From positions 1-64,000 of the forward strand of contig JAKPQE010000179.1 in assembly GCA_029572955.1 (NCBI GenBank): DNA of 64,000 bases, read 5' to 3'. The notes under the pieces are model-generated. The model saw nothing but the letters and a program-made list of their open reading frames with translations. It was not told where the DNA came from and ran no database searches. Origin of the DNA: Pseudomonadota bacterium (lineage in GTDB: Bacteria > Pseudomonadota > Alphaproteobacteria > Rhizobiales > JAKPQE01). Made by a program: the position numbers and the translations under genes. This document shows positions 1 to 4,508 of this stretch, in pieces (the stretch's first letter is position 1; each line of letters begins with the position of its first letter).

Positions 1-2782
1 GACGGTCGGTCATCAGACGTTCCAGGTCGTCCGAGCGCTCGGAGAGCGACTCAACCACCTCGAACACCTTCGAGCCGAGCGAGACATTGATCTCGGAGAT
101 GCGGTCCGCCAGCGTGTCGGTGATCTCGCGGGCCTGATCGGCGAGCGCGTTGCCGACATCGGCGACGCGACGGTCGAGGGCGGCGTTGATCTCCTCCTGG
201 CCGGCCGAGAAGGCGCCGGCGAGCTCGCGGGTGCGGCCGATCAGCGTCTCGTTGATCTGGCGCAGGCGGTTGTCGAGGGCGCCGTCGATCTTGGCGGTAC
301 GCTCGTCGAGCGTCGTGGCAAGGGCGTCCGCCTTGGTGGCGAAGGCCTCGGTTGCCTGGTCGAGGCGCTCGCCGATGCCGCGGTCGAACGAGCCGAGGCG
401 GTTCTCGACGGTCGTCTCGAGGGCGGCGGTGCGCTCGGCGATGGCGGTCCCGATCTCGTCGGCCTTGCCGCCGATCGCCTGACCGAATTCCTCGATCTGG
501 CTGGCGAACAGGTCGCGGAAGAGGTCGGAACGCTGGGTGAGGGTGTCGGCGATCTCGCCGGAACGCTGGCCGACGGACTCGTCGAAATGCGCCAGCCGCT
601 CGGCAATCGTCATCTCGAAGGTCATCGCCCGCTGGTCGAGGACGGCCGCCATGTGCTCGGTGCCCTCGATCATGCCGCGCTCGATCGCCTCGAGGCGATC
701 GGCCATGGCCCGGTCGACGTCGCTGGCCCGGTTGGTCAGGGTGTCGACCAGCAGGGCGCCGCGGCCCGTCACGATCTCGTCGAACTCGCCGATCCGGCCG
801 GCGAGGGCGTCGCGCAGCTCCTCGCCGCGCTGGGCGATGGTGTTGGCGAGCTCGGTGCTCGATTCGACGATGGCCTCGTTGACCTTCATGCCACGCGCCG
901 CGATCGCCTTGGCGACTTCGGCGCCGATCGTGGCGAGGCGCTCGATCAGCTGATGGCTCTGGCTGCCGAGGGCCTCGTTGACGGCCATGCCGGCGATTTC
1001 CAGGCCGTTGCGCATCTCGAGCGAACGCTCGTCGATGAGGTTGGCGATGGCGCCGCCGGTCTCGGCGAGACGGCTCTCGAGGTCGGTGCCGTTGATGTTG
1101 ATCGCCTCGAAGATGCGGTTGCCGGTGGCGTCCAGACGGTCGGCGAGGTCGCCGCCCTTGGTCGTGATGGTCTCGGCGATGCGCGTGCCGGTCTCGTCCA
1201 GGCGGTCGGTGATTTCGCCGCCGCGCAGGGCGAGGTCGACGAGCAGCGACTCGCCGGTGGTCTTCAGCGCCTCGTTGACCTCGTTGGCGCGCCCGCCGAT
1301 CGCCTCGATGATCTCCATGCCGGAGGTCGTGATGGAATCGGTGACGGCGCTCGCCCGGTCGGTGAAGGTGGTGGTCAGCGCGGTGCCGGCGGCAACGAGC
1401 GTGTCGTTCACCTCGCGGCCGCGCTCGCTGATGGTCTCGGCGATCGCCGTGCCGGCGCCGGCCAGCGTGTCGGTGATCTCGGCGCTGCGGCTGGTGAGCG
1501 TGTCGTTGATCTCGGCCGTGCGCAGGTTGAGCGTGTCGTTGATCTCCGAGGTGCGGATGTTGAGCATCTCGTTGATCTCGGAAACGCGGATGTGCAGCGT
1601 GTCGGTGAGCGCGCCGACCCGGGTCTCGAGGGTATCCGCGACTTCGCCGGAGCGCTGGGCGAGCGTGTCGTTGATCTCGGCGCCGCGCTCGGTGAGCGTG
1701 CGGGCGATGCCGTCCGCGGTCTCGGAGAGGGTGCTGGTGACTTCCTCGCCGCGCGTGGTGAGGAGATGCACCATGGTCTCGCCGGCGCTCGACAGCGCAA
1801 GCGTCAGGCGCTCGCCCTTGTCGCCGAGCGTGTTGGTGATGCGCTCGCCGGTGTCGGCGAGACGATCGACGATCGAGGAGCCGGTCGCCGCGATCTCGTC
1901 GGCGAAGTCCTTGTGGGCGCCCTCGATGGCGGCGCGCACGCGCTCCGAATTGTTGATGATGGCTTCGCGCTGGCTGACCAGCTCCTCGACGAGGCTGCGG
2001 ATGCGCAGCTCGTTGTCGTTGTAGGAGCGCTCGAGCGAGGCGACCTCGTTGTGGACCATCACCTCGAGCTCGCTGGCCCGCGCCAGCGCCCGCTCGACGC
2101 CGTCGCCCATGGCGGTCACTTCGCGGCGGATCGCCTGGGAGACGCTGATGACGGCTTCCTTGGCAACGCTCTCCGGCTCGGCGAGACGGATCGCGACCTC
2201 GGTCATGGCGCGGGCGACGAGCCGCATCTCGGCGGCGCGACGGATCATCGTCGCCATGACGAAGAAGAAGACGACGGGAAGCGCGATCGAAATGCCAAGG
2301 CCGATCAGATGCGGCTTCTGAACGATCCCGGCCGGGTTGGCGAGCGCTTCGGCGATGTCGGAACCCCACATGGCGATGCCGATGGCGCCGCCGATGGTCG
2401 CCCAGACGATCGACAGGACGAGGGCGATCCAGATCGGCGTGCTCGAGGCACGGCGCTGCAGGGCAAAGACGAGATTGCCGACGCTGGCCCGGTCGTCGTT
2501 GGCCGGGCGCCGGTCCTCGTTGGCGGCGCGCCGCGGGGCGGCGGGCTCGGCCTTCTTGGATGCCTTCCTGGTCTCGGCCTCGCTGCTCTGGGGCAGGGGC
2601 GGAAGCACCGGCGTTGCCGCGGCCTTCTCCTCGGGCTCGAGATGCAGGTCCCCGAGCAAATCCTCGCTGCCGGAGAAATCGGCGATGCTGTCGTCCGGAC
2701 CGCCGAAGTCGAGCTTCAGGGCCTCTTCGACCGCGGACAGTGCCGCTTCCGCCGGGTCTTTGATCTTCGGATTGTTCGCCAT
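1..2782 (-). CDS. Membrane-anchored giant hendecad-repeat (coiled-coil/apolipoprotein-like) protein, C-terminus outside window
   Basis: The frame reads from ATG at 2782 to the left edge without a stop (927 residues visible). Residues 1-110 are acidic and Pro/Ala-rich. Two hydrophobic segments lie at about 115-138 and 157-180, and residues 181-289 look like ordinary coiled coil. From residue 290 to the edge the protein is 58 consecutive 11-residue units with no insertion or deletion; typical units are TSEINDTLNLR and TAEINDTLTSR. This suggests a long amphipathic right-handed helix anchored in the inner membrane. Related very large proteins in Rhizobiales are annotated as kinesin-like or apolipoprotein A1/A4/E-like. 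The function is unknown; a structural or cell-envelope role is inference. The Shine-Dalgarno is weak (AAGGCGG). The long open frames on the opposite strand are shadows. Confidence 0.85.
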   Translation of the reverse strand, partial: MANNPKIKDPAEAALSAVEEALKLDFGGPDDSIADFSGSEDLLGDLHLEPEEKAAATPVLPPLPQSSEAETRKASKKAEPAAPRRAANEDRRPANDDRASVGNLVFALQRRASSTPIWIALVLSIVWATIGGAIGIAMWGSDIAEALANPAGIVQKPHLIGLGISIALPVVFFFVMATMIRRAAEMRLVARAMTEVAIRLAEPESVAKEAVISVSQAIRREVTAMGDGVERALARASELEVMVHNEVASLERSYNDNELRIRSLVEELVSQREAIINNSERVRAAIEGAHKDFADEIAATGSSIVDRLADTGERITNTLGDKGERLTLALSSAGETMVHLLTTRGEEVTSTLSETADGIARTLTERGAEINDTLAQRSGEVADTLETRVGALTDTLHIRVSEINEMLNIRTSEINDTLNLRTAEINDTLTSRSAEITDTLAGAGTAIAETISERGREVNDTLVAAGTALTTTFTDRASAVTDSITTSGMEIIEAIGGRANEVNEALKTTGESLLVDLALRGGEITDRLDETGTRIAETITTKGGDLADRLDATGNRIFEAININGTDLESRLAETGGAIANLIDERSLEMRNGLEIAGMAVNEALGSQSHQLIERLATIGAEVAKAIAARGMKVNEAIVESSTELANTIAQRGEELRDALAGRIGEFDEIVTGRGALLVDTLTNRASDVDRAMADRLEAIERGMIEGTEHMAAVLDQRAMTFEMTIAERLAHFDESVGQRSGEIADTLTQRSDLFRDLFASQIEEFGQAIGGKADEIGTAIAERTAALETTVENRLGSFDRGIGERLDQATEAFATKADALATTLDERTAKIDGALDNRLRQINETLIGRTRELAGAFSAGQEEINAALDRRVADVGNALADQAREITDTLADRISEINVSLGSKVFEVVESLSERSDDLERLMTDR

Positions 2783-3148
2783 CTGATTTGCCGCCTTGCG
2801 TCCGTACTCTCTACAATTCCGGCGCTCGCCCGGTGTCCAGCGCTCGACCGGTGGGCGATAGCCCGTCATGGAGATCGGCCCGCCTCCCGGGTCCCGATCG
2901 CCATTGCGCACTTGGGGTAAAAGGCTCGGAAAACCTTGCTTTCCCCACGGTTTCACACGTGCATTCATACACGAGTTGCCGCGAAAATATGGTAATGGCA
3001 CATTGGTATCAAAGGAACAAGAAACTCGGGTGGTTACCGTTTACCTGTTGTTAAGGTAAACGCGCGGCCTCTCGCGACGGGGAGGACGGGCGCCGAAACC
3101 TGCGGGCAGGCGGCGTTCGCGAAGCGGATGAAGGCGGGCGGTGCGACC
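2783..3148. other. Intergenic region between divergent genes
   Basis: This gap of about 365 bp separates the leftward repeat protein from the rightward small protein. It is locally AT-richer around 2935-3060 and presumably carries both promoters. The only motif singled out is a CtrA-like box at 3040-3054. No convincing coding frame or RNA gene was seen. Confidence 0.5.
3040..3054. promoter_or_regulatory. Candidate CtrA box (TTTA-N7-TTAA)
   Basis: The sequence TTTACCTGTTGTTAA matches the alphaproteobacterial CtrA consensus TTAA-N7-TTAA except for one base. It lies in the divergent promoter region of the hendecad protein and the small protein at 3149. The assignment rests on sequence similarity alone. 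Confidence 0.3.
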
Positions 3149-3415
3149 ATGACCACGAACGGGCGACGGGCCGGCGAACGCCCGACCGATGCGCAGCGCC
3201 GTTACCTCGTGCGCGGCCTCGACCAGCCCGGCGGCAAGCTTCCGCTGTTCGACGAGAACGGGCGCGAGATCGCCAGGAAGACCATCGAGGCCTGCGTCGC
3301 GCGCGGCTGGGCCGAGCCCTGGTTCGAAAACCCGCTGAAGCACGACTGGCTGGTCTGCAAGCTGACGCCGGCCGGCTACGAGGCCGTCGGGGCGCGGGCG
3401 CCGATCGATCGCTGA
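3149..3415 (+). CDS. Small conserved-looking protein of unknown function
   Basis: An 88-residue soluble, basic protein with no signal peptide or membrane segment. The core reads as a compact alpha/beta or winged-helix-like fold, with LPLFDENGREI near the middle and a C-terminal DWLVCKLTPAGYEAV that resembles the wing of small DNA-binding proteins. That resemblance is weak. An in-frame ATG at 3128 would add seven residues (MKAGGAT). The later ATG was chosen because the conserved-looking part begins just after it, with GGCGG-rich sequence upstream. Function not recognised. Confidence 0.65.
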   Translation: MTTNGRRAGERPTDAQRRYLVRGLDQPGGKLPLFDENGREIARKTIEACVARGWAEPWFENPLKHDWLVCKLTPAGYEAVGARAPIDR

Positions 3416-3637: not shown

Positions 3638-4021
3638 ATGGCAGTCGGTATGGCGGTCGCGATGAAGATGGTGGACGACACCGAGGGTCCCGCTTCGGGG
3701 CGCCCGATCGATCTGGTTCATCTCAGCCGGCACTCGCTCGGCAATCGCGAACTCGAGCAGGAGATCCTGCGTCTGTTCGTTCGCCAGTCGGCCCTCTATC
3801 TGGAGCGCCTGAAGGTGGCGACCACGGCCCGCGCCCGCGCCGAGGCCGCGCACACCATCAAGGGTTCCGCCAAGGGCATCGGCGCCTGGCGCGTCGCCCG
3901 TCTCGCCGAGGCGGTCGAGAATCCGCCGGCCGCCGACTACGCCATGGCGATCGAGCTGATGGGTGATCTCGAGGCGGCCGTCGCCGAGGCCAACGCCTAT
4001 ATCGACGCGATCATCGACTGA
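3638..4021 (+). CDS. Hpt-domain histidine phosphotransfer protein
   Basis: A 127-residue stand-alone Hpt protein. The phosphorylatable histidine is H72 in AHTIKGSAKGIGA, the classic HxxKGxxxxxG signature, and the whole protein is a helical bundle of single-domain size. It would pass phosphate between a hybrid kinase and a response regulator in the cytoplasm; the partners are unknown. The start at 3638 is supported by AAGGAG seven bases upstream; the frame stays open to 3527, but that extension is arginine-rich and lacks a better ribosome site. A CtrA-like box lies upstream. ChpT is longer and carries a pseudo-ATPase domain, so this is not ChpT. Confidence 0.85.
   Translation: MAVGMAVAMKMVDDTEGPASGRPIDLVHLSRHSLGNRELEQEILRLFVRQSALYLERLKVATTARARAEAAHTIKGSAKGIGAWRVARLAEAVENPPAADYAMAIELMGDLEAAVAEANAYIDAIID

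Positions 4022-4094: not shown

Positions 4095-4508
<414 letters not shown>

Follow-up and report, generated by a model that had tools for sequence, protein, structure and literature searches.

The window, that is the whole stretch of 64,000 nucleotides analysed here, opens within a minus-strand gene. Its ATG lies at position 2782, and window base 1, which is the start of contig C164, falls inside the gene. An exact 73-bp overlap with this contig end was found in contig C171 (locus L009), where both the reading frame and the 11-residue (hendecad) register carry on. The overlap suggests that C164 and C171 join here, and a chance overlap is unlikely since the 11-residue phase is unbroken across the join. 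The completed protein has a length of 1,722 aa, with its stop codon at L009:6330. From the N-terminus, two transmembrane (TM) helices are followed by a long helix, then by a Pro-rich linker and lastly by a conserved C-terminal domain of about 115 aa. The features of the gene and its neighbours are listed in Table 1.

Table 1. Features of the probable gpr/rgsE orthologue and of the surrounding locus. Coordinates refer to the window unless contig C171 (L009) is named.
Feature	Position	Strand	Basis
Probable gpr/rgsE orthologue, 5' part, residues 1-927 of 1,722	1..2782	-	contig overlap, frame, register
Probable gpr/rgsE orthologue, remaining part	contig C171, L009:6330-8789	-	73-bp overlap
Predicted TM helix 1, residues ~119-137	2372..2428	-	hydropathy 2.22; helical in AlphaFold2 model
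Predicted TM helix 2, residues ~159-177	2252..2308	-	hydropathy 2.54
Conserved juxtamembrane helical segment, residues ~190-289	1916..2215	-	comparison of relatives; 61/61 genomes of the order
Hendecad array, window part residues 293-927, register unbroken as far as ~1078 on C171	2..1906	-	
95-aa ORF between gpr and hpt	3128-3415	+	no Pfam family
Hpt-domain protein, divergent neighbour	3638..4021 (possible longer start 3527)	+	PF01627, E 1.5e-8
2Fe-2S ferredoxin, same divergent group	4188..4508	+	PF00111
mlaE-mlaF-mlaD and auxiliary lipoprotein gene, downstream, convergent with gpr	contig C171, L009:2109-5804		

The neighbourhood of the gene is conserved. Among 80 named gpr loci, which are essentially from Rhizobiales only, the Hpt neighbour is present in 63 and the ferredoxin neighbour in 75, and the ORF of 95 aa was found on the same divergent strand in 20. 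At the locus described here, a pyridine-nucleotide oxidoreductase is also located upstream, divergent from gpr. On the downstream side, a convergent MlaE is encoded in 62 of the 80 named loci, and mla adjoins gpr in 13 of the 18 sampled families of the order (11 convergent, 2 codirectional). The arrangement extends beyond the order: in six sampled genomes from five other families (L213, L217-L220, L231), mla lies convergent beside the gene, with hpt upstream in four of the six, and the Hpt neighbour was seen in four families outside the order. This recurrent arrangement is consistent with a functional tie of gpr to the Mla system.

For the protein itself, the earlier note had claimed 58 hendecads without an indel from residue 290 to the edge of the window. 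This count is correct, as residue 290 corresponds to window position 1915 and the 638 residues from there to the edge equal 58 x 11; the residues listed in Table 1 as the array are hendecads free of indels. In the register counted from residue 293, repeat position 1 is occupied by I, L, V, F, A or M and position 5 by L, I, F, V or M in 71 of 71 consecutive repeats, up to residue 1073. The ILMVF residues recur most strongly every 3.666 residues (11/3), power at 18/5 or 7/2 is practically nil, and they are found at position 1 in 89% of the repeats compared with at most 46% across 5,000 residue shuffles. A cyclic 11-state HMM, which was trained on the family and assigned an equal penalty to every jump, detected a single unbroken run of 73.3 hendecads at residues 273-1078 and no hendecad run in the residue-shuffled sequence. 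The main run is ended by a 7-residue step (VERNWRG, residues 1074-1080), after which hendecads resume to about residue 1216, followed by a degenerate register with frequent steps to about residue 1425. Register breaks, which the earlier note had considered for the remainder of the gene, are present in this tail and absent from the main run up to about residue 1078.

The other outcome considered there, a prediction of unstructured repeats, is at odds with the AlphaFold2 result. The model of residues 96-515, built with eight homologues, is a near-continuous helix of moderate confidence, with a mean pLDDT of 70 and a pTM of 0.27; the helix is broken at 109-128 and 239-250, counted within the modelled piece. 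The proposal of one very long helix next to a pair of TM helices is supported. The hydrophobic stripe of this helix is narrow, being formed by positions 1 and 5 and flanked by Arg at position 8 and small residues at position 9. The 11/3 periodicity and the spacing of core positions, +4/+7 apart, are those of hendecad coiled coils.

The repeat region was measured between fixed anchors in 79 full-length relatives. The distance from the second TM helix to the anchor is 87 residues in 78 of the 79. Values for the repeat region run from 988 to 2,293 aa (2.3-fold), with differences of up to 403 residues inside one genus. Within genera or families, 25 of the 42 nonzero length differences divide exactly by 11 (P 5e-16, a value that treats the contrasts as independent), and the corresponding counts in the control regions are 0/38 for the N-terminal tail and 2/43 for the Pro-rich linker. 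For two well-sampled genera, with six and five species, all length differences are multiples of 11. The earlier note had read the regularity as strong selection on length or pitch. Selection on length is ruled out by the spread between the same anchors, while the register part of this claim is supported by the exact multiples of 11.

The alignments give a similar picture. Between close pairs, 40 of the 42 array gaps are multiples of 11, and the two exceptional gaps, of 40 and 80 residues, come from one genus. The 40- and 80-residue differences within one genus (L041-L045) suggest a 40-residue unit composed of three hendecads plus a heptad. Gap lengths are multiples of 11 in 92 of 140 cases in the array compared with 5 of 133 in the linker. 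Array gaps of less than 11 residues were not found in 22,195 repeat residues of the close pairs, compared with 45 such gaps in 4,420 linker residues. In the full sequence set, segments are separated by 1,060 phase steps, of which 1,044 have a size of 7, 14, 21, 28 or 4 residues mod 11. Since steps of these sizes return the hydrophobic stripe to the same face of the helix, they are not arbitrary.

The length of the uninterrupted run varies across the relatives from about 7-15 hendecads (about 14.5 in Brucella) to 150, and the run of 73 hendecads in the window protein is slightly under the median of 83 for the Rhizobiales comparison set. Three relatives (L078, L073, L086) have unbroken runs of 138-150 repeats, that is up to about 1,650 residues or twice the window protein. 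In Brucella and one Mesorhizobium species the runs stop at about 14 hendecads and 7-residue units are frequently mixed in, which indicates that a constant 11/3 pitch is not essential. Judged from these sequences, stripe continuity, and not one fixed pitch, is what the family keeps.

The C-terminal domain (residues 1605-1722, L009:6333-6686) is all-helical and has no Pfam model; four residues, G36, F41, F78 and G104, are invariant in its alignment A1. An AlphaFold2 model of the domain reached a pLDDT of 86. A Foldseek search with this model returned no match at E<=0.001 in the PDB or viral libraries, and no sequence relative in the PDB was better than E 0.046. Of 199 genomes of the order, 194 carry the C-terminal domain, and the N-terminal domain is present in 61/61, each with one copy in almost all genomes; named carriers are Rhizobium, Neorhizobium, Ciceribacter, Mesorhizobium and Brucella. 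A recognisable C-terminal domain was not found in five genomes of the order (G033, G062, G121, G138, G187). Two of them, G033 and G062, have the N-terminal domain in a frame of about 1,700 aa, and here the C-terminal domain may have diverged or been lost.

On the basis of the architecture, the order-wide single copy and the relatives of the same family, the gene is very probably an orthologue of the Rhizobiales growth-pole scaffold known as GPR in Agrobacterium and RgsE in Sinorhizobium, and this high confidence includes selection on the stripe as the account of its repeats. GPR is a protein of 2,115 aa with two TM helices, a cytoplasmic location, a long helical region with PF01442 matches and an essential C-terminus, and it is found in a ring of foci at the growth pole (PMC8262873). 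Loss of the growth-pole scaffold makes cells round. RgsE, with 2,089 aa, is a membrane-anchored cytoplasmic growth-pole protein which interacts with RgsA, RgsS and TolQ (PMC7327166). Like GPR (Atu1348), the window protein has a pair of N-terminal TM helices, an extended cytoplasmic helical region carrying multiple PF01442 matches and a Pro-rich region ahead of the C-terminus, and its presence is Rhizobiales-wide (PMC8262873); it differs in its length of 1,722 aa. RgsE of Sinorhizobium meliloti (SMc00190), likened by its description, has the same architecture. A membrane- or ring-associated structural role, as envisaged in the earlier note, matches the published GPR of Agrobacterium (PMC8262873), to which the window protein is assigned by its architecture and distribution. 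The window protein is a known protein, and the register claim is now quantitative. The GPR paper makes no mention of hendecads or 11-residue repeats (PMC8262873), and no paper linking hendecads to GPR was found in the open-licence literature. A kinship with ZorA indicated by NCBIfam was rejected, as the score of 26 bits compares with a cut-off of 190; the match is read as shared long-helix periodicity.

The conservation of the register in an array of variable length can be explained in several ways. Many inserts resemble the adjacent DNA, with up to 98% identity, and steps of 22 residues are the most frequent. For these two reasons, in-register duplication or loss of units is likely the mutation behind the length changes. 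The same observations would also be expected if the 11-residue steps reflected the mutational mechanism only, that is unequal recombination or slippage between 33-nt or 66-nt repeats, with the register itself unselected. However, the array lacks the small indels that form the most frequent class in the gene's own linker, the steps between segments are restricted to stripe-preserving sizes, and neighbouring 33-nt units, with a median identity of only 39-48%, offer a weak substrate. A purely mutational origin of the pattern is therefore quite unlikely. Unequal recombination between repeats also favours 11-residue steps, but it leaves the absence of small indels unexplained, which would be best explained by selection against loss of the stripe. 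It is even less probable that the long array serves as a ruler whose length sets the geometry of the ring or the cell. The standard rise of an alpha-helix is 0.15 nm per residue. The 73 hendecads would measure about 121 nm as a helix, near the 105-nm arc between the six foci of a 200-nm ring (ring size from PMC8262873). Nevertheless, the 2.3-fold variation of the repeat region across the order and the differences of up to 403 residues within one genus argue against a ruler. The GPR paper arrives at 600 nm for a helical region of 1,700 residues (PMC8262873), which implies a rise of about 0.35 nm; with the standard rise of 0.15 nm, these residues would span 255 nm.

Apart from selection on the stripe, a further reading concerns the nature of the helix. 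The earlier note had compared the array to an apolipoprotein-like belt, and for GPR the Pfam match to apolipoproteins is the basis of a published lipid-sorting hypothesis (PMC8262873). Accordingly, the array could be a genuine belt of this kind, with an amphipathic helix on the inner membrane at the pole that sorts or sequesters lipid. This reading can draw on multiple PF01442 matches across the helical region, which lie above the Pfam cut-off with 143-165 bits, and on the Mla phospholipid-transport operon that adjoins the gene in most families. The array indeed shares with apolipoprotein A1/A4/E (PF01442) an amphipathic helical periodicity of 11/22 residues, but it is bacterial, membrane-anchored, acidic and without W/Y. 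As a control, each of the 11 repeat columns was shuffled independently, which keeps the periodicity and the column composition and destroys ancestry. These column-shuffled sequences scored 157, 168 and 176 bits against PF01442 compared with 165 bits for the native sequence, while full shuffles gave no match. The PF01442 match therefore reflects periodicity and composition, and apolipoprotein homology is unsupported, with no family-specific signal beyond the 11-residue periodicity. In addition, the array has a net charge of -65 in 781 residues with neither Trp nor Tyr, the median net charge in the family is -6.5 per 100 residues (range -8.9 to -4.5) with 0.15% W+Y, and a lipid-binding discriminant (HELIQUEST form) is passed by only 2% of the 18-residue windows. 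A lipid-binding amphipathic helix would be expected to show balanced or positive charge beside a wide hydrophobic face. Strong acidity, a narrow stripe and the near absence of W/Y would suit a scaffold of the coiled-coil type more than a lipid belt. The belt comparison is weak for these reasons, and a genuine apolipoprotein-like function is considered unlikely. A second, weak PF01442 match in the genome (L215:1649-6868 on contig C150) belongs to an Ala/Glu-rich protein of about 1,740 aa. It was rejected as a gpr relative, since by reading it is PAS-domain histidine-kinase-like and unrelated.

Outside the order, a class sample of 285 genomes yielded the C-terminal domain in about 107. The proteins carrying it there are mostly shorter, although some reach 2,000 aa or more, and among the short relatives the runs reach only about 3-10 hendecads, compared with uninterrupted hendecad helices of up to 150 repeats in Rhizobiales. 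The shorter forms at the conserved hpt-gpr-mla locus mostly have 700-1,200 aa, and the conservation of this locus outside the order is evidence that the short and giant forms share an ancestor. It also suggests that the giant array arose largely by expansion within Rhizobiales. GPR has been described as similar to TipN of Caulobacter (PMC8546619) and as 'analogous' to it (PMC13170164). TipN of Caulobacter crescentus has 882 aa, and relatives of 700-1,000 aa with the gpr C-terminal domain occur outside the order.

From these results and the published work on GPR and RgsE, a possible mode of action can be outlined. The two TM helices, predicted from the sequence, would anchor the protein in the inner membrane, and the cytoplasmic part would form one long, nearly continuous helix of 11-residue units, connected by the Pro-rich linker to the conserved helical C-terminal domain. 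The stripe would run almost straight along this helix, as in hendecad coiled coils; the periodicity is observed and the packing is deduced from it. Judging from the published GPR and RgsE work, the helices probably self-associate through the stripe and keep proteins of polar growth together in a ring close to the new pole. If the stripe must stay continuous, off-register indels would be purged and whole 11-residue units tolerated, and the length would drift in 11-residue steps. A broader account, which we put forward tentatively and with somewhat less than even confidence, is that GPR is an ancient alphaproteobacterial polar scaffold and not an apolipoprotein. In Rhizobiales its stalk would have been extended as units of 11 or 22 residues were duplicated in register, with the stripe selected and the length free, and the protein would be functionally tied to polar Mla phospholipid transport.

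In the open question of how a single growing pole is built in Rhizobiales without MreB, GPR is central and structurally obscure. The comparison presented here removes the sequence argument for GPR as an apolipoprotein and points out a conserved genomic tie between gpr and the Mla lipid transporter. For the family, it yields a testable rule, according to which the continuity of the stripe is kept and the length is not.
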